This document shows positions 10,880 through 35,773 of a stretch of DNA of 35,773 nucleotides, piece by piece. The notes under the pieces were generated by a model, which was not told the origin of the DNA, ran no database searches, and was given only the letters and a program-made list of their open reading frames with translations. The DNA is from a virus, in the IMG/VR virus record IMGVR_UViG_3300044736_000032, positions 1-35,773 of that record. One strand, written 5' to 3'. The stretch's first letter is position 1, and each line of letters opens with the position of its first letter. Position numbers and translations under genes: made by a program.

Positions 10880-12122
10880 CTCTCGTGTAAGATGTTTCCT
10901 GTGAGGACGGCGTACAAGGTTCGGGCGTACCCAGACCCCGAGCAAACGACAATGTTGTCGCGTACATTCGGATGTGTACGCGTTGTCTGGAATAAGACCC
11001 TGGCTGCCCGGCAAGAGCGATATACCACCGAACAGCGAAACACTCCATACAAAGAAACCGATGCGGCGTTGGCCTTGTGGAAACGTACCGATGAACTATC
11101 ATTTCTCGCGGAGGTCAGCTCAGTACCGTTGCAACAAGCCCTCAGGCACCAATATTCGGCTTTCACCGCATTTTACTCAAAACGCGGTCGGTATCCGCGA
11201 TATAAAGCCCGCAACAGCCGTCAATCTGCCCACTACACTCGGTCAGCGTTCCGAATTAAGTCCGACGGATTGTGGCTGGCGAAAACCAACACACCATTAA
11301 AAGTAGTCTGGTCTTGGGCAGATGTCGACATGACAACACTAAACCCGACAATGGTAATCGTATCCCGAGATACTAGTGGCCGTTGGTTTGTAACATTTGC
11401 TGTTGACCAACCGGATCCATCACTACTGCAACCAACCCATGAAACGGTCGGCATCGATCTCGGTATCACTGACTTCGCCGTCCTATCAACCGGGGACCGT
11501 ATCGCCAATCCTAAACACATGGCACAGTACGAACGTAATCTACAACGACACCAACGACGACTTTCACGGTGTACACGAGGTTCAGCGAACAGAGCCAAAG
11601 CAAAACTAAAAGTGGCTCGGCAACACACGCGCGTTCGAGACAGTAGGCGGGACTTCCTCCACAAGGCAACCACCGCGCTAGTCCGTCGATTCGACAGGAT
11701 CGCGATCGAAGACCTTGCCGTGGGCAATATGATCCGGAACCGCAAACTCAGCAAATCAATCAGTGAATGCGGTTGGGGCACATTCAGAACCATGTTAGAA
11801 TACAAAGCTGCGCGGGCTGGACGACAGTTAATTACCATCAACCGTTGGTATCCGTCCTCTAAAACGTGTTCAACTTGCGGGCACCTCCTTGCCAATATTT
11901 CTCTCAAAACACGTCACTGGACGTGCCCTGGATGCGGCACCCGACATGATCGGGACATCAACGCCGCTAAGAACATCGACACCGCTGCCGGGCTGGTAGT
12001 GGCTGCCTGTGGAGGCGATGTAAGACCAGTGAGGGCAACCTCAGGGCAACCGCCGGTGAAACAGGAAGACCCACTCGTGAGGGTGGGAATCCCCAATATC
12101 GTCGGGGAAACAAGTCAAGACC
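10880..12122 (+). mobile_element. TnpB-only insertion (IS605/IS1341 type), ends approximate
   Basis: A lone tnpB lies on the plus strand between two minus-strand structural genes, with no tnpA. The right end carries two hairpins: 7 bp with a GTGA loop at 12070-12087, and TCCCC/GGGGA at 12090-12108. These are typical of IS200/IS605-type right ends. The left boundary must lie close to the tnpB start because the ribosome site of the minus-strand 28-residue frame is at about 10879-10885. Exact ends and the target site need an empty-site homologue. Confidence 0.6.
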
Positions 12123-27936: not shown

Positions 27937-28547
27937 CAAGCAGCTCCTAGCAACCCACGATAGAGGGGGTCAACTTTTCGGTACCGACTGCGGTGGACTC
28001 GCCACTCCATGACCAGGTAGTCTCGTTTCGAGCTGTTATGCGACTTGCACGCAGGCGCTAGATTGCCCTCGTAGTTCGTACCGCCACGGCCGAGCGGGAT
28101 CACGTGGTCAACTGTCGATGCTGGAACCGGGCACACCCAACACGACTTACCCTGTCGTTTCCACTTCGCCAACAATAGACTACGGCGGTAACTATTCAAT
28201 CCCGGTACATCCTCACGAATGCGACGCCTACCTTTACGGACTTTCTCGTTAGGCGCAACTCGGGGAGTGAATAACCTATAACAGGCATAAGAGCAATACT
28301 TACCAGGATTATGGCAAAGCGACGCTACTCCGCACGGACACTGCACTTCATATCTCTTGCGACTTAATCGACAAGTTGGGCACCATCGGGCATTACTGCC
28401 CGTACCGATTTGCTGGAATGCCGTTTTACACAACTCGCATTGTCTATTCCTAGTTGATCGACCCTTGATAGCCACCGGCACATAGCTCGATACATACCGT
28501 CCGGCTCGTCGGTTGGTCCGCTGTCGGCACGCTTGAGAGCACCACAC
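27936..28547 (-). CDS. HNH endonuclease with zinc fingers; true N-terminus uncertain
   Basis: From GTG 28547 the protein has 203 residues. The HNH core is C136/C139, 'STVDHVIPLGRGG' (D147, H148), Asn162, C167, H170 and Asn171. Upstream are further CxxC pairs (37/40, 56/59, 70/72, 85/89). The same frame stays open 25 codons before GTG 28547 and encodes 'CRGCDGPLAPQRRGANPR', which completes a zinc finger with C3 and C7. The real protein therefore probably starts further up, yet only a CTG (28616) is available there. HNH proteins beside terminases often assist packaging in HK97-like phages, and homing is the alternative. Confidence 0.8.
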   Translation of the reverse strand: MWCSQACRQRTNRRAGRYVSSYVPVAIKGRSTRNRQCELCKTAFQQIGTGSNARWCPTCRLSRKRYEVQCPCGVASLCHNPGKYCSYACYRLFTPRVAPNEKVRKGRRRIREDVPGLNSYRRSLLLAKWKRQGKSCWVCPVPASTVDHVIPLGRGGTNYEGNLAPACKSHNSSKRDYLVMEWRVHRSRYRKVDPLYRGLLGAA

Positions 28548-28596
28548 GCGCGGGTTAGCACCCCGTCGTTGCGGAGCTAGTGGTCCGTCGCAGCCT

Positions 28597-28881
28597 CTAC
28601 AAAGTGTCTTTACCAGCCAATACTAGCCTATGTGTAGATCCTTTTAAAGCTACGACACTGGACCGACCTGCGGTTTCCAAGTCCCTGACCCGTATCGGGG
28701 GGCGGAACGCTGGTGCGGGGTCACGGCGGCTGCCCATGATCACGTCAGTTGGGTGCCCCCCGGGGGTGATGCGCTGCCCGAGCTCGCCGGCGAGCCGGAT
28801 GGTGGCAGTCCCCGTGACCCCGCGGATGGTCTGCCGGGGGTGGTGGCGGGGGAAGTGTCCGAACGGATGGTGGCGGGTCAC
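28597..28881 (-). CDS. Doubtful 94-residue frame in the divergent control region
   Basis: The minus frame from GTG 28881 to TAG 28597 has third positions rich in G/C and would overlap the 5' extension of the HNH gene. The protein (starting MTRHHPFGHFPRHHPRQTIR) is His/Arg/Pro-rich at first and unrecognised, and the ribosome site is weak. It occupies the gap between the two divergent gene blocks, which otherwise holds only GC-rich palindromes (for example CCCCCGGGGG near 28757) and no clear gene. Confidence 0.25.
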   Translation of the reverse strand: MTRHHPFGHFPRHHPRQTIRGVTGTATIRLAGELGQRITPGGHPTDVIMGSRRDPAPAFRPPIRVRDLETAGRSSVVALKGSTHRLVLAGKDTL

Positions 28882-28916
28882 ATTCCATTACCGCACGTGT
28901 TGCGTCCATTCGCCAC

Positions 28917-28956
28917 TTGCCCACCCATACATTGCGCGGGTAGTGTTACCGGTATG
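28917..28956 (+). promoter_or_regulatory. Repeated early promoter-like element, copy 1
   Basis: TTGCCC, 18 bp, TAGTGT, then TACCGGTAT. It shares ACCCATACAT and GCGGGTAGTGTTA with three other copies in the right arm. The -35 and -10 resemble those used by the main bacterial sigma factor. The predicted start of RNA falls about 20 nt before the 28975 gene. Confidence 0.65.
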
Positions 28957-28974
28957 AGCAACCCGGAGGTCACA

Positions 28975-29250
28975 ATGAACGAGTCACCGGAAGCGGGCAG
29001 GCTACGCAATCTCGCGGACGAACACTACACGCTCGCCTGCCACGCGGACACGAGTATCGAGGCGGACCGTCACGAACGTCTGGCAGCTCGTTACGAGCGC
29101 GAATGGCAGAAAGTTCGCGAGGCCAACCGTGCGGAGCAACGCAGTGATCTGTCTGACAGATGCAATCGTGATCTCGGTACGGGTCAGCGTTGCGACAACG
29201 TGAACGGTCCTGGTCATCTCGGGCCGTGCGGTAACGGACCGTGGCGTTAA
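28975..29250 (+). CDS. Small helical and zinc-site protein, first gene of the right arm
   Basis: ATG 28975 has GGAGGT 4 nt upstream, better than ATG 28954. The 91-residue protein has two helices ('AGRLRNLADEHYTLACHADT', 'EADRHERLAARYEREWQKVR') and a Cys-rich tail ('RCNRDLGTGQRCDN', 'GHLGPCGNGPWR') that could bind zinc. The tail pattern recurs in small actinophage proteins. Function unknown. It follows promoter copy 1 directly. Confidence 0.6.
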   Translation: MNESPEAGRLRNLADEHYTLACHADTSIEADRHERLAARYEREWQKVREANRAEQRSDLSDRCNRDLGTGQRCDNVNGPGHLGPCGNGPWR

Positions 29251-29317
29251 GGCCACACAGGACGCGATAGGTAGTTAGGTTGGCCAACGACCTTGGTACC
29301 GCTGTGAGGGGGGGGGA

Positions 29318-29539
29318 TTAACGTTTCAGTGCTGATCGTTCCCTATCGGGGACGAATGCCCATCTGATGGATACCGTGCCATCTTCCGGTATGGATGAGC
29401 AACATTCAGGACATGGCATCCCCGCACCACATATTGATGCGCAGTCATCGTCACGACCTGTTTCCCAGGGTTGATGTTGGTGGTTCTCGCAGACGCAGCC
29501 GGTGTCGTCGCAGTTGCGACAGTGGATCATCTGATACAC
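29318..29539 (-). CDS. Small cysteine-rich zinc-finger protein
   Basis: A 73-residue protein on the minus strand within the plus-strand cluster. Cysteines lie in 'IHCRNCDDTGCVCENHQHQP', 'W', 'CASICGAGMPCPECC'. The order CxxCxxTGxxCExHxxxPW then CGxGxPCPxC is a recurrent small zinc protein of actinophages and other phages, of unknown role. GTG 29539 has a weak ribosome site; ATG 29530 is an alternative. A run of nine G lies just beyond its stop (29308-29316). Confidence 0.65.
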   Translation of the reverse strand: MYQMIHCRNCDDTGCVCENHQHQPWETGRDDDCASICGAGMPCPECCSSIPEDGTVSIRWAFVPDRERSALKR

Positions 29540-29563
29540 CCCATCATTATCGCTGAGCTCGTA

Positions 29564-29609
29564 GGTCCTGCCGTGTGACGGGTAGCGTTTTCGTAAAGCG
29601 CCGGGACCG
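29564..29609 (+). ncRNA. Mini tRNA-like element, copy A
   Basis: Acceptor-like stem GGTCCTG (29564-29570) pairs with CGGGACC (29602-29608), 7/7 including one G-T. Between them are a small hairpin CCGT-GTG-ACGG, the spacer GTA, and a T-arm GCGTT-TTCGTAA-AGCGC (5-bp stem, 7-nt loop). G is at the discriminator position, then CTCTC. D and anticodon arms are absent. Confidence 0.6.
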
Positions 29610-29644
29610 CTCTCGAAGTCGGGCTGAGCTGAAGTGGGTAGTTA

Positions 29645-29856
29645 TGTGTAGTACGCAGTGCGCGGGTATCCGGACGATACAGGCCGGCCTAGTGGACGGG
29701 ATCCTGTCGAGCCGTTTGCGGGGTAATGACCCGGTCCGTGGTGAGCTGGCCGCGGCGTTGCATCATTTGTCGTTGGCTAGGTCGGCTGCTCACCGGGTGT
29801 GTTTGTCGGGTGGCGTTGCGGGTTGCGTCCATTCGCCACTTGCCACCCATACATGA
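29645..29856 (+). CDS. Duplicated 70-residue protein, copy A
   Basis: ATG 29645 (weak AAGTGG upstream) opens a 70-codon frame (MCSTQCAGIRTIQAGLVDGI, then 'ELAAALHHLSLARSAAHRVC', ending 'CVHSPLATHT'). A paralogue lies at 30708. Many differences between the two are synonymous (AGT/AGC, CGG/CGC, CTG/TTA, TTG/CTG), which supports real coding. The protein is mostly helical with four Cys. The last ten codons overlap the next promoter element. No family recognised. Confidence 0.55.
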
Positions 29857-29878
29857 CGCGGGTAGTGTTATTGCTATA
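29840..29878 (+). promoter_or_regulatory. Repeated early promoter-like element, copy 2
   Basis: TTGCCA, exactly 17 bp, TAGTGT, then TATTGCTATAGG. Near-consensus -35 and acceptable -10. It lies 27 bp upstream of the 29905 gene and overlaps the end of the 70-residue gene. Confidence 0.7.
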
Positions 29879-29904
29879 GGACAACACGCACGGAGGAGAT
29901 CACG

Positions 29905-30261
29905 ATGTCCGACCTGACTCTCTATACAACTACTGCGCCGGTGCATGAATACCGGTTGTTTGTAGCACCGCGACCACTGCCCGGTCGCCCAGTGGGCCGT
30001 GTTGTAGGGGAAGTCTACGACGTAGCGCCGGAGTTTGAGCAGCGCACACGGGAGTTGGATGGCCAGTCAATCACGGTTGTTACCGTTACCGAATTCGAGA
30101 ATCTCGTCGAAGTGACGATGGAAGCAGATGAGGGGCGTCGATACACGCGGCGCGACTATGAAGAGGCTGGCGTATGGGATCCAGAAGAAATCGGTCGCAG
30201 TCTAGGTATAGCGCTAGTCACAATCCGTCCGCTCAGAGCGGACACGGGGCGCGATAGGTAA
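29905..30261 (+). CDS. Hypothetical early protein
   Basis: The start ATG 29905 has GGAGGAG 6 nt upstream. The 118-residue acidic protein ('YTTTAPVHEYRLFVAPRPLP', 'SITVVTVTEFENLVEVTMEA', 'RYTRRDYEEAGVWDPEEIGR') looks alpha/beta. It is unrecognised. It is the first gene after promoter copy 2, and its last codons form the 5' strand of the next tRNA-like element. Confidence 0.65.
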   Translation: MSDLTLYTTTAPVHEYRLFVAPRPLPGRPVGRVVGEVYDVAPEFEQRTRELDGQSITVVTVTEFENLVEVTMEADEGRRYTRRDYEEAGVWDPEEIGRSLGIALVTIRPLRADTGRDR

Positions 30262-30290
30262 GCAGGCTGGTGCGAGTCCAGCCGCGCCCG
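30247..30290 (+). ncRNA. Mini tRNA-like element, copy C
   Basis: GGGCGCG (30247-30253) pairs perfectly with CGCGCCC (30283-30289). The 12-nt linker ATAGGTAAGCAG shows no hairpin. The T-arm is GCTGG-TGCGAGT-CCAGC. The discriminator is G, followed by CTCCA. The 5' strand overlaps the stop of the upstream gene. Confidence 0.6.
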
Positions 30291-30327
30291 CTCCAGCATC
30301 ATCCCTCGAACCTAAGGAGAGCACATC

Positions 30328-30618
30328 ATGGACGTCAAGGTCTACGACACACACTACGGCCTAGTTGAAGTGAGCGACACGGTCGCAGGTCAAGATCCGG
30401 TCCCGTTCCGGCTCGGCGAGGGCGCGCTACACCCGTCACAGATCCGTGTCTACTGCAAAACAACCGGCGAACTGACCGAGGTAGTCGTCAACGGCAATTC
30501 CGTCGATAAGAACCTGGCAAGCAAGGTTGTCTACTTCCCGCACACGATCAGTCTGTCGCCAAAGTGGGTTTGGGAATTCGTCCAAGCGGCTTGCGCAAAG
30601 GCGATATATGTCAGCTGA
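30328..30618 (+). CDS. Hypothetical early protein
   Basis: ATG 30328 follows AAGGAGA by 7 nt. The 96-residue protein ('VKVYDTHYGLVEVSDTVAGQ', 'GALHPSQIRVYCKTTGELTE', 'PKWVWEFVQAACAKAIYV') is beta-rich with a C-terminal helix. No family recognised. tRNA-like elements lie on both sides of it. Confidence 0.65.
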   Translation: MDVKVYDTHYGLVEVSDTVAGQDPVPFRLGEGALHPSQIRVYCKTTGELTEVVVNGNSVDKNLASKVVYFPHTISLSPKWVWEFVQAACAKAIYVS

Positions 30619-30625
30619 GCTCTAA

Positions 30626-30672
30626 GGTCCTGCCGTTGTGACGGGTAGCGCTTTCGAAGGGCGCCGGGACCA
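30626..30672 (+). ncRNA. Mini tRNA-like element, copy B
   Basis: GGTCCTG (30626-30632) pairs with CGGGACC (30665-30671). Then come hairpin CCGT-TGTG-ACGG, GTA, and T-arm GCGCT-TTCGAAG-GGCGC. The discriminator is A, then CTCTA. Compared with copy A, the two inner T-stem pairs differ (T-G to C-G; T-A to T-G) but still pair. Confidence 0.65.
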
Positions 30673-30707
30673 CTCTACGGGTCGGGCTGAAACTGAAGTG
30701 GGTAGCT

Positions 30708-30920
30708 ATGTGTAGCACGCAGTGCGCAAGTATCCGCACGATACAGGCCAAACTGACGGACGGGATCCTGTCGAGCAGTTCGCACGATAATGACCCGATC
30801 CGCAGTGAGTTAGCCGCGGCGTTGCATCATCTGTCGTTGGCTAGGTCGGCTGCTCACCGGGTGTGTTTGTCGGGTGGCGTTGCGGGTTGCGTCCATTCGC
30901 CACTTGCCACCCATACATGA
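30708..30920 (+). CDS. Duplicated 70-residue protein, copy B
   Basis: Paralogue of the 29645 protein, starting MCSTQCASIRTIQAKLTDGI. The two differ at about ten residues, all in the first half; the second half is identical in DNA. One segment changed from RLRG to SSHD. It is bounded by a tRNA-like element 35 nt upstream and promoter copy 3 at its end. Function unknown. Confidence 0.55.
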   Translation: MCSTQCASIRTIQAKLTDGILSSSSHDNDPIRSELAAALHHLSLARSAAHRVCLSGGVAGCVHSPLATHT

Positions 30921-30942
30921 CGCGGGTAGTGTTATCGGTATC
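30904..30942 (+). promoter_or_regulatory. Repeated early promoter-like element, copy 3
   Basis: TTGCCA, 17 bp, TAGTGT, then TATCGGTATCAG. Identical to copy 2 through TAGTGTTAT. It lies 30 bp before the 30972 gene. Confidence 0.7.
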
Positions 30943-30971
30943 AGCCAATCACGATCACCACGGAGGATATT

Positions 30972-31181
30972 ATGCTGAGACGTTCGGATGATGGATTCCG
31001 GTATGTCCGTGGCTACCGGGTAAAGCCGACCAAGTCAATGTGTGATGGCGGTACAAAACGCTGGGCACTGTGGGAACGTCGCGACGGACGCATGAGACGA
31101 GTCGGCACTGCGGTCACTGAGGAAGTGTACCGCGATTTCCTGTTCGAGCGTGGTAACTGGGCTAGAACAAGCCGTAGTTGA
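30972..31181 (+). CDS. Small basic hypothetical protein
   Basis: ATG 30972 follows GGAGG by 5 nt. The 69-residue protein is Arg-rich ('GFRYVRGYRVKPTKSMCDGG', 'KRWALWERRDGRMRRVGTAV'). The charge suggests nucleic-acid contact, but no motif is recognised. It follows promoter copy 3. Confidence 0.6.
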   Translation: MLRRSDDGFRYVRGYRVKPTKSMCDGGTKRWALWERRDGRMRRVGTAVTEEVYRDFLFERGNWARTSRS

Positions 31182-31189
31182 GCACGTCC

Positions 31190-31223
31190 GATCTCGCCAG
31201 GTCGGCTGGTGTCACGTTCGAGA
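31190..31223 (+). ncRNA. Truncated tRNA-like element (relic)
   Basis: The 32 bp at 31191-31222 match 31649-31680 with three mismatches, covering the 5' stem, the CCAG/CTGG hairpin and the first T-arm strand with TTCGAG. The 3' T-stem and acceptor strand are missing and replaced by the next gene's leader. Confidence 0.5.
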
Positions 31224-31248
31224 ATCACGATTACTACGGAGGATTGTT

Positions 31249-31341
31249 ATGGATGAGTTCGTGTCGAAACGGTCAACGTTTCAGGCATTCAGTAATCGCG
31301 GTCGGGCGAAGATGATTCCGGTCCAAGCTGTGTGGACGTGA
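31249..31341 (+). CDS. 30-residue peptide
   Basis: ATG 31249 has GGAGG 6 nt upstream. The basic peptide (MDEFVSKRSTFQAFSNRGRA plus ten residues) is unrecognised. The strong ribosome site and spacing like its neighbours support it as a gene. Confidence 0.5.
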   Translation: MDEFVSKRSTFQAFSNRGRAKMIPVQAVWT

Positions 31342-31407
31342 TCAGCGTCGGACCCGTTCGAGGTCACCCTTTGCCTGACGTCGAGCCTTCAAGCTATTGA
31401 CTGGATC

Positions 31408-31635
31408 ATGTCCCGGGAGCTGCTGGCCGCTGGTTTGGATGGTCCTGCGGGCCTCGGTGACGTGTCTCTGCTGCCAGCGCTCGATGATCCGAACCGGTTA
31501 GAGCTCATTGTGTCCAACGGCACGGGGCATAACGCTTGCTTCAGGATCCCCCGCGCACCGCTGGCCGCGTTCCTGAAAGCCACCGACCGGATCGTCCCGA
31601 TGGGTTCCGAGGTGCTGAACATCGAGGTGCTGTGA
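31408..31635 (+). CDS. Hypothetical early protein
   Basis: A 75-residue acidic protein from ATG 31408 ('RELLAAGLDGPAGLGDVSLL', 'NRLELIVSNGTGHNACFRIP', 'AAFLKATDRIVPMGSEVLNI'). The ribosome site is weak, but the frame upstream offers no ATG or GTG. Unrecognised. Confidence 0.55.
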   Translation: MSRELLAAGLDGPAGLGDVSLLPALDDPNRLELIVSNGTGHNACFRIPRAPLAAFLKATDRIVPMGSEVLNIEVL

Positions 31636-31647
31636 CCGAGTTGCAAG

Positions 31648-31694
31648 GGTCTCGCCAGGTTGGCTGGTGTCGCGTTCGAGTCGCGAGGGGACCA
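31648..31694 (+). ncRNA. Mini tRNA-like element, copy D
   Basis: GGTCTCG (31648-31654) pairs with GGGGACC (31687-31693) at 6 of 7 positions, the innermost being G-G. Hairpin CCAG-GTTGG-CTGG follows, then TG and a perfect T-arm TCGCG-TTCGAGT-CGCGA. The discriminator is A, then CTCCC. Confidence 0.6.
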
Positions 31695-31734
31695 CTCCCG
31701 ATAAACACAATCAACACCCAGGAGACCGATCATC

Positions 31735-31917
31735 ATGCGAATACTACGGCAGAACGCTATCGAGACAGTGTCGGACAATCAGGAGCTAGCTGCCATCGTT
31801 GACGGTGAATGGGTCGACGATCAAACACTGACCGTTGGTACTCGACTACAGCAATTAAGTGATCTCTGCGTCAAGGTGCTACGCGATCACGGATATGATG
31901 TAAAGGGTGATCTCTGA
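31735..31917 (+). CDS. Small acidic protein coupled to the DUF3560-like gene
   Basis: ATG 31735 follows AGGAG by 10 nt. The 60-residue protein ('RILRQNAIETVSDNQELAAI', 'TLTVGTRLQQLSDLCVKVLR') is helical. Its stop overlaps the next ATG, so the two are translated together. Unrecognised. Confidence 0.6.
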   Translation: MRILRQNAIETVSDNQELAAIVDGEWVDDQTLTVGTRLQQLSDLCVKVLRDHGYDVKGDL

Positions 31918-32921
31918 TGAAACTCGTGACACTGACAATCACGCATAGCGCCGAGTCGGGGACGGTGGCGTTGGGCACGAGTAAGGGTGACGGTTCCGCG
32001 CCGATCCTGAAGGCGGCGGGTTTCCGTTGGTCCCGCAACATTGACGGCGGGGCGTGGTTCGTGCCGCAGTCCCGTGACCGCGCACCGCGAACGGACCGTA
32101 TCGACCGGGCAGCGTCCGGGCTCCGTACGGCTGGGTTCGACGTGGAGGTCGAGATCGACACTGCCAGCCGGTCGACGGCGCAGGTGGAAGCGGACCGGGC
32201 AGCGCGTTCCGCGGACCGTGTGGAGCACCTAGCGGGTAAAGCGGAGCGGTTGACGGCCACGGGTGAAGCTGCCTGGGAGCGGACGCAGCAGCTGCGGGAG
32301 TTGATCCCGCTGGGTCAACCCATGATGCCGGATCACTACTCGTACAACCGGGACCGGAACTTCCGGGACAAGCTGCACCGCAAAGAGGGCAAAGCGATCG
32401 AAACCCTCAAGGAGGGTGAGGACGCGGCTCGTCGCGCGGATGCCGCGGAAACCAACCAGCGGTACCGGATGACGGGGCCGGTGACGGAACGCCGGATTAA
32501 GGACCTGGAAGCCGAGCTGCGGAAGTTGGAGCGTGACCGTGACGGCTACACACGGAACTTCCTGAGCGGGTCAGGGGAGATCTACGACCGGGAGGTTCAC
32601 GAGCCGGCGGCTGGCGGGTACCGGGAACGGCTCGAATCACGCATCGCTGAGGTGACGGAGCAGCTCACGTACTGGCGGGCGCATCTTGAGCAATTGACGG
32701 CTGATGGTGCGCACCGTGTGTGGGGACCGGCAGATTTCACAAAAGGTGATCAGGTTCAGGTCCGTGGCCGGTGGTGCGACGTATTGCGAGTGAACCAAAA
32801 ATCTCTGACCGTGCTGATAGTCGCGCACAGTTCATACTCACAAAAAAATACGGTGCCCTACGACGAGGTCCAAGGTCAGCGTTCGGCTACCGGTGTGGTC
32901 GACTTGGATAAGTCGGTGTGA
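31917..32921 (+). CDS. DUF3560-like coiled-coil protein
   Basis: The 334-residue protein begins MKLVTLTITHSAESGTVALG, then 'TSKGDGSAPILKAAGFRWSR', 'AWFVPQSRDR' and 'GLRTAGFDVEVEIDT'. This start is the pattern I associate with DUF3560 proteins of actinobacterial plasmids and phages. A long charged coiled coil follows (about 85-260, with 'AQVEADRAARSADRVEHLAG' and 'RIKDLEAELRKLERDRDGY'), then a small beta domain with 'DFTKGDQVQVRGRWCDVLRV'. No biochemical role is established to my knowledge; plasmid and phage occurrence suggests DNA metabolism or host interaction. Translation is coupled to the 60-residue gene upstream. Confidence 0.7.
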   Translation: MKLVTLTITHSAESGTVALGTSKGDGSAPILKAAGFRWSRNIDGGAWFVPQSRDRAPRTDRIDRAASGLRTAGFDVEVEIDTASRSTAQVEADRAARSADRVEHLAGKAERLTATGEAAWERTQQLRELIPLGQPMMPDHYSYNRDRNFRDKLHRKEGKAIETLKEGEDAARRADAAETNQRYRMTGPVTERRIKDLEAELRKLERDRDGYTRNFLSGSGEIYDREVHEPAAGGYRERLESRIAEVTEQLTYWRAHLEQLTADGAHRVWGPADFTKGDQVQVRGRWCDVLRVNQKSLTVLIVAHSSYSQKNTVPYDEVQGQRSATGVVDLDKSV

Positions 32922-32940
32922 GCGTTACACCATTCAGCGG

Positions 32941-32980
32941 TAGGTGACCCATACACGGCGGGGTAGTGTTATCGGTATCG
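32941..32980 (+). promoter_or_regulatory. Repeated early promoter-like element, copy 4
   Basis: TAGGTG, 17 bp containing CCCATACA, TAGTGT, then TATCGGTATCGG. The -35 is poorer than in copies 2 and 3, but the downstream half is conserved. It precedes the 33017 gene. Confidence 0.55.
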
Positions 32981-33016
32981 GAGCAGTCGGGGCCAAACAC
33001 GAAACGAGAGAGCATC

Positions 33017-33238
33017 ATGTACGGATTCAACGATCTAAGCGATGACGGACTGGTCCGGGTTCTCGCGGCCTACCAGAAGATGATCGACGAGAAGCATCGC
33101 GGGCAAGTCAAGAAGGACGGGTCACCAACCAAGAAGCTCGCGGGGTGGATCTCCAAGATCCACACCATCCAGGCATTCAGGGCACAGGCTACTGAACGGG
33201 AATGGCACTGGGATGAGCACATCACGGATCCTGTTTGA
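33017..33238 (+). CDS. Hypothetical early protein
   Basis: ATG 33017 follows GAGAGAGC. The 73-residue helical protein ('YGFNDLSDDGLVRVLAAYQK', 'TKKLAGWISKIHTIQAFRAQ') is unrecognised. Its last codons and stop overlap the 5' part of a tRNA-like element. Confidence 0.6.
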   Translation: MYGFNDLSDDGLVRVLAAYQKMIDEKHRGQVKKDGSPTKKLAGWISKIHTIQAFRAQATEREWHWDEHITDPV

Positions 33239-33273
33239 GCGTACGGCTGTGGGATCGAATCCCACCGGGGCCA
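33227..33273 (+). ncRNA. Mini tRNA-like element, copy E
   Basis: GATCCTG (33227-33233) pairs with CGGGGCC (33266-33272) with one A-C mismatch and two G-T pairs. The linker holds AGC-GTACG-GCT. T-arm GTGGG-ATCGAAT-CCCAC is perfect. The discriminator is A, then CTCCA. Confidence 0.6.
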
Positions 33274-33311
33274 CTCCAGAAGTCGGGGACCGACACGAAA
33301 GCAGACCAGTC

Positions 33312-33758
33312 ATGAGCGCAACCAGAAACAAGCGGGTGTCAGGCATATACGCGGCACCCGTGACCTCGTTGACCGATGCCGAAAGCGAAAGTGAGCTCGC
33401 GGAGCGGTCCGAGCTGGCTCGTCAACGTATCCAGCAGGGCCGCGGGTGCGGTTACCCCGATTTCGAGGCCAACGCGCTGCGGATGCATGAGCTGAACGCG
33501 GAACGGGACGAGCGGGACGACGTTGAGGTCCCCGCTGACCACGTGTACGTGACACCTCAACCGGGTTGGGGTGCGCCTTACGGTGACTCAGTCGCGTATT
33601 GGACTGAGGACGGTCCGGTGTGGATATTCCGCAAGGGTCAGCGTGTCCGGTTCTACGACACGACCGGTGCCCAACGCGGACCGGAGCAGGGCAACATAGC
33701 ACCGGCGGTGGCTTTCGCGCTGTCGCAGGGTTGGGGCTGGGCGGGGTGCACGTCATGA
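33312..33758 (+). CDS. Hypothetical protein
   Basis: The 148-residue protein starts at ATG 33312 (weak site). The first half is charged and helical ('ESESELAERSELARQRIQQG', 'ALRMHELNAERDERDDVEVP'). The second has 'YGDSVAYWTEDGPVWIFRKG' and 'AVAFALSQGWGWAGCTS'. Unrecognised. Its stop overlaps the next ATG (ATGA). Confidence 0.6.
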   Translation: MSATRNKRVSGIYAAPVTSLTDAESESELAERSELARQRIQQGRGCGYPDFEANALRMHELNAERDERDDVEVPADHVYVTPQPGWGAPYGDSVAYWTEDGPVWIFRKGQRVRFYDTTGAQRGPEQGNIAPAVAFALSQGWGWAGCTS

Positions 33759-33898
33759 GCAGGCCGATGACAACCCACAGGATGGTCGGCAGTTTATCCG
33801 TGATCGCAATCGCGGTGATGCTGGTGGTGTCGGGGGTACTGACGGGCGGACTCGCGTGGATAGTCGCGCTGGCACTGCTGGTGTGGGCGCTGTCGTAA
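33755..33898 (+). CDS. 47-residue membrane peptide with two helices
   Basis: ATG 33755 overlaps the upstream stop. After a short basic start (MSRPMTTHRMVG) two hydrophobic helices follow ('LSVIAIAVMLVVSGVL', 'LAWIVALALLVWALS') joined by a short turn. Small early membrane peptides can alter the host envelope or superinfection; there is no direct evidence here. Confidence 0.6.
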   Translation: MSRPMTTHRMVGSLSVIAIAVMLVVSGVLTGGLAWIVALALLVWALS

Positions 33899-33985
33899 TT
33901 GCCGACGCCCCATTGACAGGTCACCTGCGTCTAAACTGATCGGTCCGGTTCCACTTCGGTCGGGGACTACCGAAAGTAGCAACCC

Positions 33986-34168
33986 ATGAACACGTCAGAA
34001 AAAAGTGTAACACCTGAGCACTTAATCGAGGCATACCCAGACCACTTTGGTACGTGGAACCTCGGTTGTGATTGCGGCTGGACATCAGGATGGGCCCCAA
34101 ACGAAGAAGTAGCTTCGCTTTATGCTGAGGAACACCTCAACGAGACAACTGATCATGACCACGTCTGA
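33986..34168 (+). CDS. Small CxCGW-motif protein
   Basis: A 60-residue acidic protein (MNTSEKSVTPEHLIEAYPDH, then 'WNLGCDCGWTSGWAPNEEVA'). The 'C-CGW-SGW' followed by an 'A--EHL' helix is a recurring small actinobacterial and phage motif of unknown function. It overlaps the start of the transporter gene by 14 bp. Confidence 0.55.
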   Translation: MNTSEKSVTPEHLIEAYPDHFGTWNLGCDCGWTSGWAPNEEVASLYAEEHLNETTDHDHV

Positions 34169-34850
34169 GGGCTCTGAGAGCACGTCGACAGTGGGCTTTG
34201 CTCTGGGGGTGAACCTGACGATAGCGGTGGCGAAGGCCACGGTGGGGGTCTTGTCGGGTTCGCCGGCGATCCTGTCGGAGGCCGCTCACTCCATGGTGGA
34301 CACCTCGACGCAAGTGCTGCTGCTGGTCGGTTTGCACCGCGCGAAGCACCCGGAGCGGCCGAACGCGGAGTACGCGTGGGGTTGCACGGCCGCGGTGTCC
34401 ATGTTCGCCACGGGCGCCTGTTACGCGGCCTACGAGGGCTTGGTGACCCTGCTGGACCCGCCGGCGGCGGAGGGGTTGGTGTGGTTGGCGGTGGCGGTGT
34501 TGGTGGTCTCGGCGGGCATGGAGGCCACGTCTTGGGTGACGGCGTTCCGTCAGCTGTGGCGCGGTCGGGGCGACTTGTCGTTGTGGGCGTACCTGCGGGT
34601 CACACCCGACACGAGCGCGAAAGCCGTCCTGTTGGAGGACACCGCGGACATCGCGGGTTGCGCCTTGGCCCTGGCCGGAGTGGTGTTGCGGGCCGTGACG
34701 GGTAGTGCGGTGTGGGATGCGGTGGCGTCGCTGCTGATCGCGGGGTTGATCACGGTGGTGGCGTGGCAGCTCGGCACCCACAACCTGCGCCTACTACGAG
34801 TCGGGCAGCCGACCGCAACGGAACTACCCGCAACTGTATGCGTATCGTAG
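34155..34850 (+). CDS. Cation diffusion facilitator (metal efflux) transporter, lacking the cytoplasmic domain
   Basis: From ATG 34155 the protein has 231 residues. It has the six-helix core of CDF transporters: TM1 'FALGVNLTIAVAKATVGVLS', TM2 with 'SGSPAILSEAAHSMVDTSTQ' (His45 and Asp49 as HxxxD), TM5 with 'VLLEDTADIAGCALALAG' (E161/D162) and TM6 'AVWDAVASLLIAGLITVV'. The 'YLRVTPDTSAKAVLLEDTA' form resembles the SLC30A9-like branch. Members export Zn, Co or Mn against protons, and most are near 300 residues with a C-terminal cytosolic metal-sensing domain. Here the protein ends about 20 residues after TM6. DNA is visibly more GC-rich than its neighbours, suggesting recent capture from a host. 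Activity is plausible but untested. Confidence 0.8.
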   Translation: MTTSEGSESTSTVGFALGVNLTIAVAKATVGVLSGSPAILSEAAHSMVDTSTQVLLLVGLHRAKHPERPNAEYAWGCTAAVSMFATGACYAAYEGLVTLLDPPAAEGLVWLAVAVLVVSAGMEATSWVTAFRQLWRGRGDLSLWAYLRVTPDTSAKAVLLEDTADIAGCALALAGVVLRAVTGSAVWDAVASLLIAGLITVVAWQLGTHNLRLLRVGQPTATELPATVCVS

Positions 34851-34902
34851 TACTAACTCCCGCTAGTCAGAAACACCTAACGGATAAAGATCGGTGGGGA
34901 CG

Positions 34903-35190
34903 ATGATCGCGTACCTGGTGTGGATAGGCGGTGGTTCACTCTTCGGGTCATTACTAGTGCGGTTACCGACTCATCGTTGGGAGATGAGGCAACGGAACAT
35001 AGAGGGCCTGCGCGCGGACCGCTTGTGGTTCCGCGAACTGGGTTGGTCATCACCTACAGATCGACAACGAGATAAGATCCGGCTTGATTTGGCAACCGCG
35101 TATGTACGGCGGAACTGGTGGTGGACGTCGAAGGTTCAGGTGTTCACGGAAGACATCGACGCCAAGCTCGCCGAAATAGGCCAATCATGA
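34903..35190 (+). CDS. Small protein with N-terminal membrane helix
   Basis: ATG 34903 follows GGTGGGG. The 95-residue protein has a membrane helix ('IAYLVWIGGGSLFGSLLVRL') and a charged cytoplasmic part ('WEMRQRNIEGLRADRLWFRE', 'WWWTSKVQVFTEDIDAKLAE'). Unrecognised. Its stop overlaps the next start (ATGA). Confidence 0.6.
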   Translation: MIAYLVWIGGGSLFGSLLVRLPTHRWEMRQRNIEGLRADRLWFRELGWSSPTDRQRDKIRLDLATAYVRRNWWWTSKVQVFTEDIDAKLAEIGQS

Positions 35191-35543
35191 CCCCGTCAGA
35201 CCTCGACTTCTCCCGACCGTGCGCGCGGGAGGGTTGCGGGCAGTACCTGCCAGCGTCGGCGAGTCCCCGGCGGAAGTATCACGCGCCGCGCTGCCAGGTC
35301 GCTGACTCCCGGGCCCGCACAGCCGCCACGCAGCCACCGAGGCCGGTGCGGGTGAAGCAGGACCAGTCACCGGAGGCCCGCAAAGCCCGCAAGGACCAGC
35401 AACGGCGTGACCGTCGGGTACGGACGCACGCTAACGGTGGGATCGCACCCACGAAGGTGCACAACGCGTCGACGTGGAACAACTGGGGCTGCCGCTGCAC
35501 CACCTGCGTCACAGCACACCTAGCCAAGATCCACGGCGACTAA
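35187..35543 (+). CDS. Zinc-finger protein
   Basis: The 118-residue basic protein has two likely zinc sites: 'CAREGCGQYLP' with 'KYHAPRCQVADSRAR', and 'WGCRCTTCVTAHLAKIH'. The first resembles the N-terminal finger of the HNH protein at 27936-28616 (C--C, then C---C-R-R). A nucleic-acid binding role is likely but not shown. Translation is coupled to the upstream membrane protein gene. Confidence 0.65.
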   Translation: MTPSDLDFSRPCAREGCGQYLPASASPRRKYHAPRCQVADSRARTAATQPPRPVRVKQDQSPEARKARKDQQRRDRRVRTHANGGIAPTKVHNASTWNNWGCRCTTCVTAHLAKIHGD

Positions 35544-35558
35544 AGTGAGGAACGCGTC

Positions 35559-35773
35559 ATGGCTGATGTCACGGCACCGATGGAGTGGCACCCGTTCTAC
35601 CTAGATAAGCCGTGGCTCATGGAGTGGCTCGACGGGCACCCACCATATGACCCATACATTCTGCGTTTACCTATCGTCCACAAACCATCGACCGGCGACC
35701 GCGGTAGTTACGACATCTATGACACGCAGCTCACTGATCACGAGTTGATTCTGACGAAGCAAAAAGCCTGCGG
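35559..35773 (+). CDS. Hypothetical protein, N-terminal part (runs off the window)
   Basis: ATG 35559 follows GTGAGG. The 71 visible residues (MADVTAPMEWHPFYLDKPWL, 'MEWLDGHPPYDPYILRLPIV', then 'SYDIYDTQLTDHELILTK') are acidic and aromatic-rich. Unrecognised. Confidence 0.55.
   Translation, partial: MADVTAPMEWHPFYLDKPWLMEWLDGHPPYDPYILRLPIVHKPSTGDRGSYDIYDTQLTDHELILTKQKAC

Follow-up and report, generated by a model that had tools for sequence, protein, structure and literature searches.

Intercistronic elements resembling the acceptor/T-arm half of tRNA in the early region of an actinobacterial phage

Why would a phage place short, structured, tRNA-like elements between its small early genes? 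The question is raised by the virus record IMGVR_UViG_3300044736_000032 (IMG/VR), which represents an uncultured siphovirus-like phage of Actinobacteria; the whole 35.8-kb stretch of this record (35,773 nucleotides, nt) was analysed here and is referred to as the window. Five elements of 44 to 48 nt each, denoted E1 to E5, start on the plus strand at positions 29564, 30247, 30626, 31648 and 33226. A first-pass annotation, made from the letters of the DNA, had reported a tRNA-half form at these five places; all five were recovered, with the start of the last one refined from 33227 to 33226.

Structure and covariation of the five elements

In our alignment, the common form consists of a GG-x5 acceptor strand, a linker of 12-15 nt, a T-arm, the 3' strand of the acceptor, a purine discriminator and CTC[CT]. 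The features typical of tRNA, namely, a T-arm with a stem of 5 base pairs (bp) and a 7-nt loop, the T-loop consensus (C56, R57, mostly A58), the acceptor stem and the purine discriminator, are present in all five elements. The T-arm is perfect throughout, as annotated previously, with 5 of 5 pairs in each element. The 7-bp acceptor that had been proposed for all copies stands in three of them (7/7 pairs in E1, E2 and E3), whereas E4 forms 6 of the 7 pairs, with an inner G-G mismatch, and E5 forms either 6 of 7 pairs or, with 33226 taken as the first base of the stem, all 7 around a single bulged A. A tiny hairpin can form within the linker in four cases, in accord with the earlier count (CCGT/ACGG twice, CCAG/CTGG and AGC/GCT), the element without it being E2. 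The anticodon arm is absent from all elements, which accordingly do not form the cloverleaf of a tRNA gene, and ARAGORN detects no tRNA or tmRNA genes in the window.

Standard pairs occupy 98.3% of the pair cells of the alignment, and in 7 of the 12 pairs, among them each of the five in the T-stem, both sides have changed. None of 500 shuffles matched these values of pairing and covariation, and sliding the register by one to three columns reduced the pairing to 42-57%. The view that the structure rather than the sequence of these elements is conserved turns out to be too strong, given that the acceptors of four copies are related in sequence (GG-TCC/T..GGRCC). Furthermore, E1 and E3 are paralogues with the same acceptor stem that lie within a duplication of about 400 nt, at a spacing of 1062-1064 nt; thus, the five copies are all present but represent four independent lineages, and both the covariation and the counts rest on these four lineages within a single genome. 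A covariance model built without E2 recovers E2 with 23.2 bits (E 4e-4; filters off), the next score being 10 bits; under the default speed filters, the same model misses E2. Together, the covariation, the T-loop identity, the R73-C74 tail and the held-out recovery provide good support for the conclusion that the elements are an RNA family under selection that mimics the acceptor and T-arm half of a tRNA.

The clustering of these elements exceeds what chance would produce. Scanning by tRNA rules (5 of 5 T-stem pairs, a loop of the form [AGT][TG]C[AG][AT]NN, at least 6 of 7 acceptor pairs, a linker of 10-17 nt, and a purine followed by C) yielded five matches in positions 28901-33900 of the plus strand and no other match anywhere in the window, on the plus or the minus strand. 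The chance expectation, estimated from 1000 dinucleotide shuffles, is 0.02 matches per 5 kb, and related phage DNA (1.09 Mb, or 2.17 Mb counting both strands) contains 0.03 matches per 5 kb; these odds are somewhat flattered because the permitted linker lengths and the acceptance of T at loop position 5 were chosen with knowledge of the copies. When the loop rule is dropped, the whole window contains 100 stem combinations on both strands, exactly five of which carry the [AG]CTC tail, and all these five have C-G at loop positions 3-4, so that the tail and the loop criteria coincide in singling out the same five elements. As a control, we took the T-arms of 53 real phage tRNAs, for which a short-linker acceptor with at least 6 of 7 pairs was found in 10 (19%) and one with 7 of 7 pairs in 2 (4%), compared with 5 of 5 and 3 of 5, respectively, among the elements. 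Acceptor pairing above this control argues that the elements are not tRNA 3' halves with lucky partners.

The predicted folding is not uniform among the copies. E3 is predicted to fold as drawn, also in a longer RNA context, where the acceptor stem is predicted to be stable in both E1 and E3. In isolation, E1 favours an alternative fold (-20.8 versus -18.0 kcal/mol), and this preference for another hairpin by 2.8 kcal/mol, along with the T at position 58 of its T-loop, suggests that E1 may be decaying. In the longer context of E4, the 5' strand of the acceptor has alternative partners downstream, the Shine-Dalgarno region among them.

Placement between the early cistrons

Small genes occupy the plus strand from about 28.9 kb, the early region, and each of the elements lies between two cistrons on this sense strand. 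Counted from the final base of the acceptor, the next ATG follows at 35, 38, 36, 41 and 39 nt for E1 to E5, respectively (the start of the gene after E1 was set by hand, by comparison with the duplicate copy), and the upstream stop codon lies anywhere between 12 nt 5' of the element and 15 nt into it. In particular, the first 15 nt of E2 overlap the end of the gene at 29905-30261, and the first 13 nt of E5 overlap the end of the gene at 33017-33238. The leader sequences 3' of the elements differ among the copies, indicating that it is the distance that is kept.

A promoter-like box, CCCATACAT(N)GCGGGTAGTGTTAT, which is not sigma-70-like, occurs at four places in the early region (Table 1). Judging from their repetition, these boxes are probably early promoters; no element falls between a box and the first gene of that box. 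We found no promoter or terminator belonging to the elements themselves, and a reading of the elements as terminators was rejected, the sole terminator-like match that overlaps an element (E1) being within the shuffle rate.

The segmental duplication that encompasses E1 and E3 (29552-29948 and 30614-31010, plus strand) includes the element, the gene for a protein of 70 amino acids (aa) and the promoter-like box, with the 3' end of the gene overlapping the box. Two incomplete copies, one resembling E2 (denoted E0) and one resembling E4, were also detected (Table 1). Between E0 and E1, the better open reading frame (ORF) is on the minus strand (29318-29539), so that E1 may have arrived via the duplication. 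This ORF, which encodes CxxC-type motifs and has no Pfam match, is embedded in an otherwise rightward early region.

The structural genes of the phage, among them those for the terminase, the portal and an HK97-type capsid protein, are on the minus strand, and the portal shows 42-64% identity to those of viral contigs and prophages of Saccharopolyspora, Streptomyces, Micromonospora and Spongiactinospora. An SsgA-like sporulation/cell-division gene (31249-31635, plus strand; PF04686, E 7e-21 for the downstream part) suggests a sporulating actinomycete as the host. An in-frame TGA at 31339-31341 splits this gene into an N-terminal piece and the domain, and might reflect a pseudogene, readthrough or a sequencing error. 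A possible auxiliary gene in the early region belongs to the cation efflux family (PF01545; 34155-34850, plus strand).

Table 1. Elements, incomplete copies, downstream genes and promoter-like boxes in the early region
Feature	Coordinates	Strand	Description
E1	29564..29613	+	acceptor GGTCCTG/CGGGACC; linker CCGTGTGACGGGTA; T-arm GCGTT-TTCGTAA-AGCGC; discriminator G29609; then CTCT
E2	30247..30294	+	acceptor GGGCGCG/CGCGCCC; linker ATAGGTAAGCAG; T-arm GCTGG-TGCGAGT-CCAGC; discriminator G30290; then CTCC
E3	30626..30676	+	acceptor GGTCCTG/CGGGACC; linker hairpin CCGT/ACGG; T-arm GCGCT-TTCGAAG-GGCGC; discriminator A30672; then CTCT
E4	31648..31698	+	acceptor GGTCTCG/GGGGACC (6/7); linker hairpin CCAG/CTGG; T-arm TCGCG-TTCGAGT-CGCGA; discriminator A31694; then CTCC
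E5	33226..33277	+	acceptor GG(A)TCCTG/CGGGGCC, bulged A; T-arm GTGGG-ATCGAAT-CCCAC; discriminator A33273; then CTCC
E0, degenerate E2-like copy	29258..29300	+	79% identity over 29 nt; acceptor stem not intact
E4-like copy ending in T-loop	31192..31222	+	94% identity over 31 nt; upstream of SsgA-like gene
Gene downstream of E1	29644..29856	+	70 aa, copy 1 of duplicated gene
Gene downstream of E2	30328..30618	+	96 aa, no family
Gene downstream of E3	30708..30920	+	70 aa, copy 2 of duplicated gene
Gene downstream of E4	31735..31917	+	60 aa; followed by DUF3560 gene 31917-32921
Gene downstream of E5	33312..33758	+	148 aa, no family
Promoter-like box, copy 1 (CCCATACAT-GCGGGTAGTGTTA)	28921..28959	+	repeat; before first gene of operon I
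Promoter-like box, copy 2	29843..29881	+	repeat; before gene 29905, operon II
Promoter-like box, copy 3	30907..30945	+	repeat; before gene 30972, operon III
Promoter-like box, copy 4	32947..32982	+	repeat; before gene 33017, operon IV

Searches for homologues and known families

A covariance model of the family detected no homologues in the loci of 84 relatives, in whole viral records or in about 1,240 actinobacterial genomes, searches in which only near copies are detectable: a divergent copy such as E2 reaches about 23 bits when left out of the model, which is below what a 10-Mb genome can show. The matches that these searches produced were real host or phage tRNA 3' halves or chance. The first-pass annotation had held that a lack of homologues in related phages would refute its proposal. 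The relatives at 42-64% portal identity indeed lack the elements, but this absence is not decisive because they have no early genes in common with this phage. Neither the promoter-box scan nor the SsgA-based scan revealed a related early region; in the IMG/VR pattern scan for the box, no other related phage contig contained it, the single match being a contig with 40% GC and without related context. The family is, at present, a one-phage family, with copies known from one genome only.

Searches of Rfam at gathering and relaxed thresholds returned nothing relevant; for the mascRNA-menRNA family (RF01684), there was no match up to E 5 in positions 28500-35773, and individual searches with E1 and E4 gave none up to E 10. 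The early region had no match in a phage DNA collection. A concatenate of the five elements matches phage tRNA genes, some unannotated tRNA-like stretches and a site on the integrase side in Gordonia; in Gordonia phage Trax, a tRNA-3'-end-like stretch adjoins the integrase gene, as attP would. The elements themselves are unlikely to be attP tRNA fragments: there are five differing elements and no integrase among the scanned early-region proteins. No Rfam family, phage record or publication describing such elements was found in a search that was not exhaustive, in agreement with the earlier impression, now joined by the Rfam, ARAGORN and literature results, that no phage family of this form has been described.

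Pattern scans of IMG/VR (T-loop followed by GGGRCC-RCTCC; GGTCY...GGACC-RCTC) gave only chance matches, one real tRNA-Phe and one odd T-arm end. The last of these lies in an actinobacterial-type (pro)phage (IMG/VR 2903878485_000002, 11302-11618, minus strand), in an intergenic region upstream of a small gene. The region ends with a perfect T-arm, CGGGACC and ACTCC, and a matching GGTCCCG about 300 nt upstream is predicted to pair with it; this could be a long RNA closed by a tRNA-like end, with a predicted fold that is no more stable than those of shuffles.

Candidate roles and comparison with known systems

The acceptor stem, T-stem and T-loop alone make an efficient RNase P substrate, with the GGU of the RNase P RNA contacting the substrate 3' end (PMC11143913), and RNase Z reads the same elbow (PMC11693755). 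RNase P has, in addition, been linked to the cleavage of polycistronic mRNAs between genes (Li and Altman 2003, as cited in PMC2777011). Against this background, we see an even chance that the elements are intercistronic acceptor/T-arm tRNA mimics that serve as processing marks in polycistronic early mRNA. In the transcript, the acceptor and T stems would stack to form a 12-bp rod with the T-loop, the part of a pre-tRNA that is measured by RNase P; cleavage by RNase P would fall at the first acceptor base, and RNase Z, a probable second enzyme, could follow with a cut 3' of the discriminator, a point at which the DNA encodes no CCA. The upstream message would end near its stop codon, and the downstream message would start afresh with a leader of much the same length in every case, about 34-40 nt, similar to the leaders (about 22-41 nt) that the promoter-like boxes are expected to produce. 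In this way, small early genes that share a transcript would be uncoupled in stability and translation. The acceptor and T-stem domain of RNase P substrates can be drawn as a secondary structure in all five elements, but not all of its stems are favoured in the longer-context predictions; coaxial stacking and recognition by the two enzymes we infer from known enzymology, and the benefit to the phage is a further supposition. The original suggestion that the elements are processing or stability marks or small RNAs is partly supported: the mimicry of a tRNA half is well supported, and the action of the enzymes would follow from the substrate rules. The strictly intercistronic placement and the uniform 35-41 nt to the start codon, neither of which was part of that suggestion, strengthen the punctuation idea.

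Several observations weigh against this assignment. The elements encode no 3' CCA, ending with RCTC instead of RCCA, so that recognition by bacterial RNase P would be weaker; the R and the C are present at the 3' end, and the third base, T, could wobble with the G of the GGU in the RNase P RNA. The upstream stop codon falls within E2 and E5, so that ribosomes terminating there would unfold these two elements, and cleavage at the 5' end of either would deprive the upstream message of its stop codon. In the predicted longer-context folds, the T-arm of E1 is not favoured, and the acceptor stems of E2, E4 and E5 are outcompeted. The genes downstream of the elements are short and uncharacterised, and the related phages and genomes examined yielded no homologue.

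The uniform spacing to the ATG could also fit cis-acting leader structures that control the translation of the next gene without cleavage, by keeping the Shine-Dalgarno region open or by trading pairing with it. The acceptor 5' strand of E4, GGTCTC, is complementary to GAGACC in the Shine-Dalgarno region, a pairing that competes with the acceptor stem, and the CTCC after E2 and E4 can pair with GGAG. This explanation, which leaves the kept T-loop identity and the R-C tail unaccounted for, appears unlikely; E1, E3 and E5 show no such complementarity and have weak Shine-Dalgarno sequences. It is improbable that the elements are small RNAs in their own right, that is, mimics of about 46 nt, produced in quantity, that bind or decoy a host tRNA-handling enzyme or a defence factor (RNase P, RNase Z, the CCA-adding enzyme or an acceptor-end toxin). 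The retention of the tRNA elbow and acceptor features without the anticodon, the presence of several copies among the early genes and the precedent of mascRNA, such a small RNA product in human cells (PMC11693755), are compatible with this role, but a decoy requires neither the 35-41 nt spacing to the start codon nor an intercistronic site in every copy, and no promoter or terminator of its own was found.

A still smaller probability attaches to a role at the DNA level, with the elements being borders of shuffling gene cassettes or recombination sites (integron attC-like or tRNA-derived att) that inherited their tRNA look from tRNA targets. The joint duplication of E1 and E3 with the following gene, the truncated copies that break inside the element and the tRNA-like stretch next to the Trax integrase would be in line with such sites. 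However, a site recognised by DNA identity has no need for the covariation that is seen on both strands of both stems. Copies whose stem sequences differ would make poor substrates for homologous exchange, and the scanned proteins of the early region include no recognisable integrase. It is very improbable that the elements are decayed tRNA genes, devoid of the D and anticodon arms and of any present function: the T-arm and tail are tRNA-like, and one degenerate and one truncated copy exist, but compensatory changes have preserved the paired stems in several copies, four independent lineages share one and the same deletion, location and spacing, the window contains no tRNA, and E1-E3 have no acceptor partner at tRNA distance. 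Equally slim is the chance that the elements modify the transcribing RNA polymerase in cis (antitermination), in the manner of put and nut sites, as might be suspected of repeated structured RNAs that are always internal to early operons and never at the operon start. The put and nut structures are not known to include a T-loop or acceptor stem, whereas the tRNA features are what is kept here.

The more specific version of the processing scenario, in which the phage uses a minimal RNase P substrate as natural, repeated punctuation, set at a constant distance from the start codons, and has its early transcript cut into separate messages by the host tRNA maturation enzymes, we put forward tentatively, at somewhat below an even chance. 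If it is true, the elements would be, to our knowledge, the first natural family of anticodon-less tRNA mimics that function as mRNA processing signals in bacteria or phages. In the test tube, the acceptor/T-arm domain has served for decades as a minimal substrate of RNase P, and tRNA-mimic punctuation of mRNA is known from organelles; the minimal signal would then suffice in a bacterial cell, offering short, portable RNA-processing parts, and would explain how the expression of many tiny genes in polycistronic early transcripts can be set one by one.

The closest structural counterparts of the elements are the minimal RNase P substrates of the AT1 type, which have the same domain, with two stacked stems, a 7-nt T-loop and a purine discriminator followed by C (PMC11143913). 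In contrast to the natural elements, with their 12-15 nt linker and RCTC end, the AT1-type substrates are laboratory constructs without a comparable linker. Such constructs carry RCCA ends. Natural RNase P sites in bacterial polycistronic mRNAs are similar with respect to intergenic cleavage (Li and Altman 2003, as cited in PMC2777011). The elements differ from these sites in being repeated, spaced and covarying. We know of no repeated family with a common tRNA-like form among the natural bacterial RNase P sites in mRNA.

Among phage elements, the ESAS of cluster K mycobacteriophages are likewise repeated elements with paired arms upstream of phage genes, near the start codon, but they are 17-bp imperfect inverted repeats with a sequence consensus, located beside a start-associated sequence, have no T-arm and are conserved in sequence and not in pairing (PMC3203893). 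With their 7- and 5-bp stems of differing sequence, the elements described here do not belong to the ESAS.

In plant mitochondria, t-elements are tRNA-like structures at mRNA ends that are cut by RNase P and RNase Z, have no encoded CCA and play no tRNA role in translation (PMC11658184). The phage elements resemble them in the sense orientation at mRNA borders, here between a stop codon and the next ATG, and in the lack of an encoded CCA; they differ in having no anticodon arm and in residing in a phage. The mascRNA/menRNA family (RF01684) also combines an acceptor stem, a reduced D-like hairpin and a T-arm, and its maturation involves RNase P, RNase Z and CCA addition (PMC11693755). mascRNA, which derives from a human long non-coding RNA, keeps an anticodon-equivalent stem, unlike the elements, which lack that stem and can form a small hairpin in four of the five copies. 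If the elements work as proposed, they do so in the manner of t-elements and mascRNA, while being members of neither group, with no cloverleaf and no anticodon-equivalent stem.

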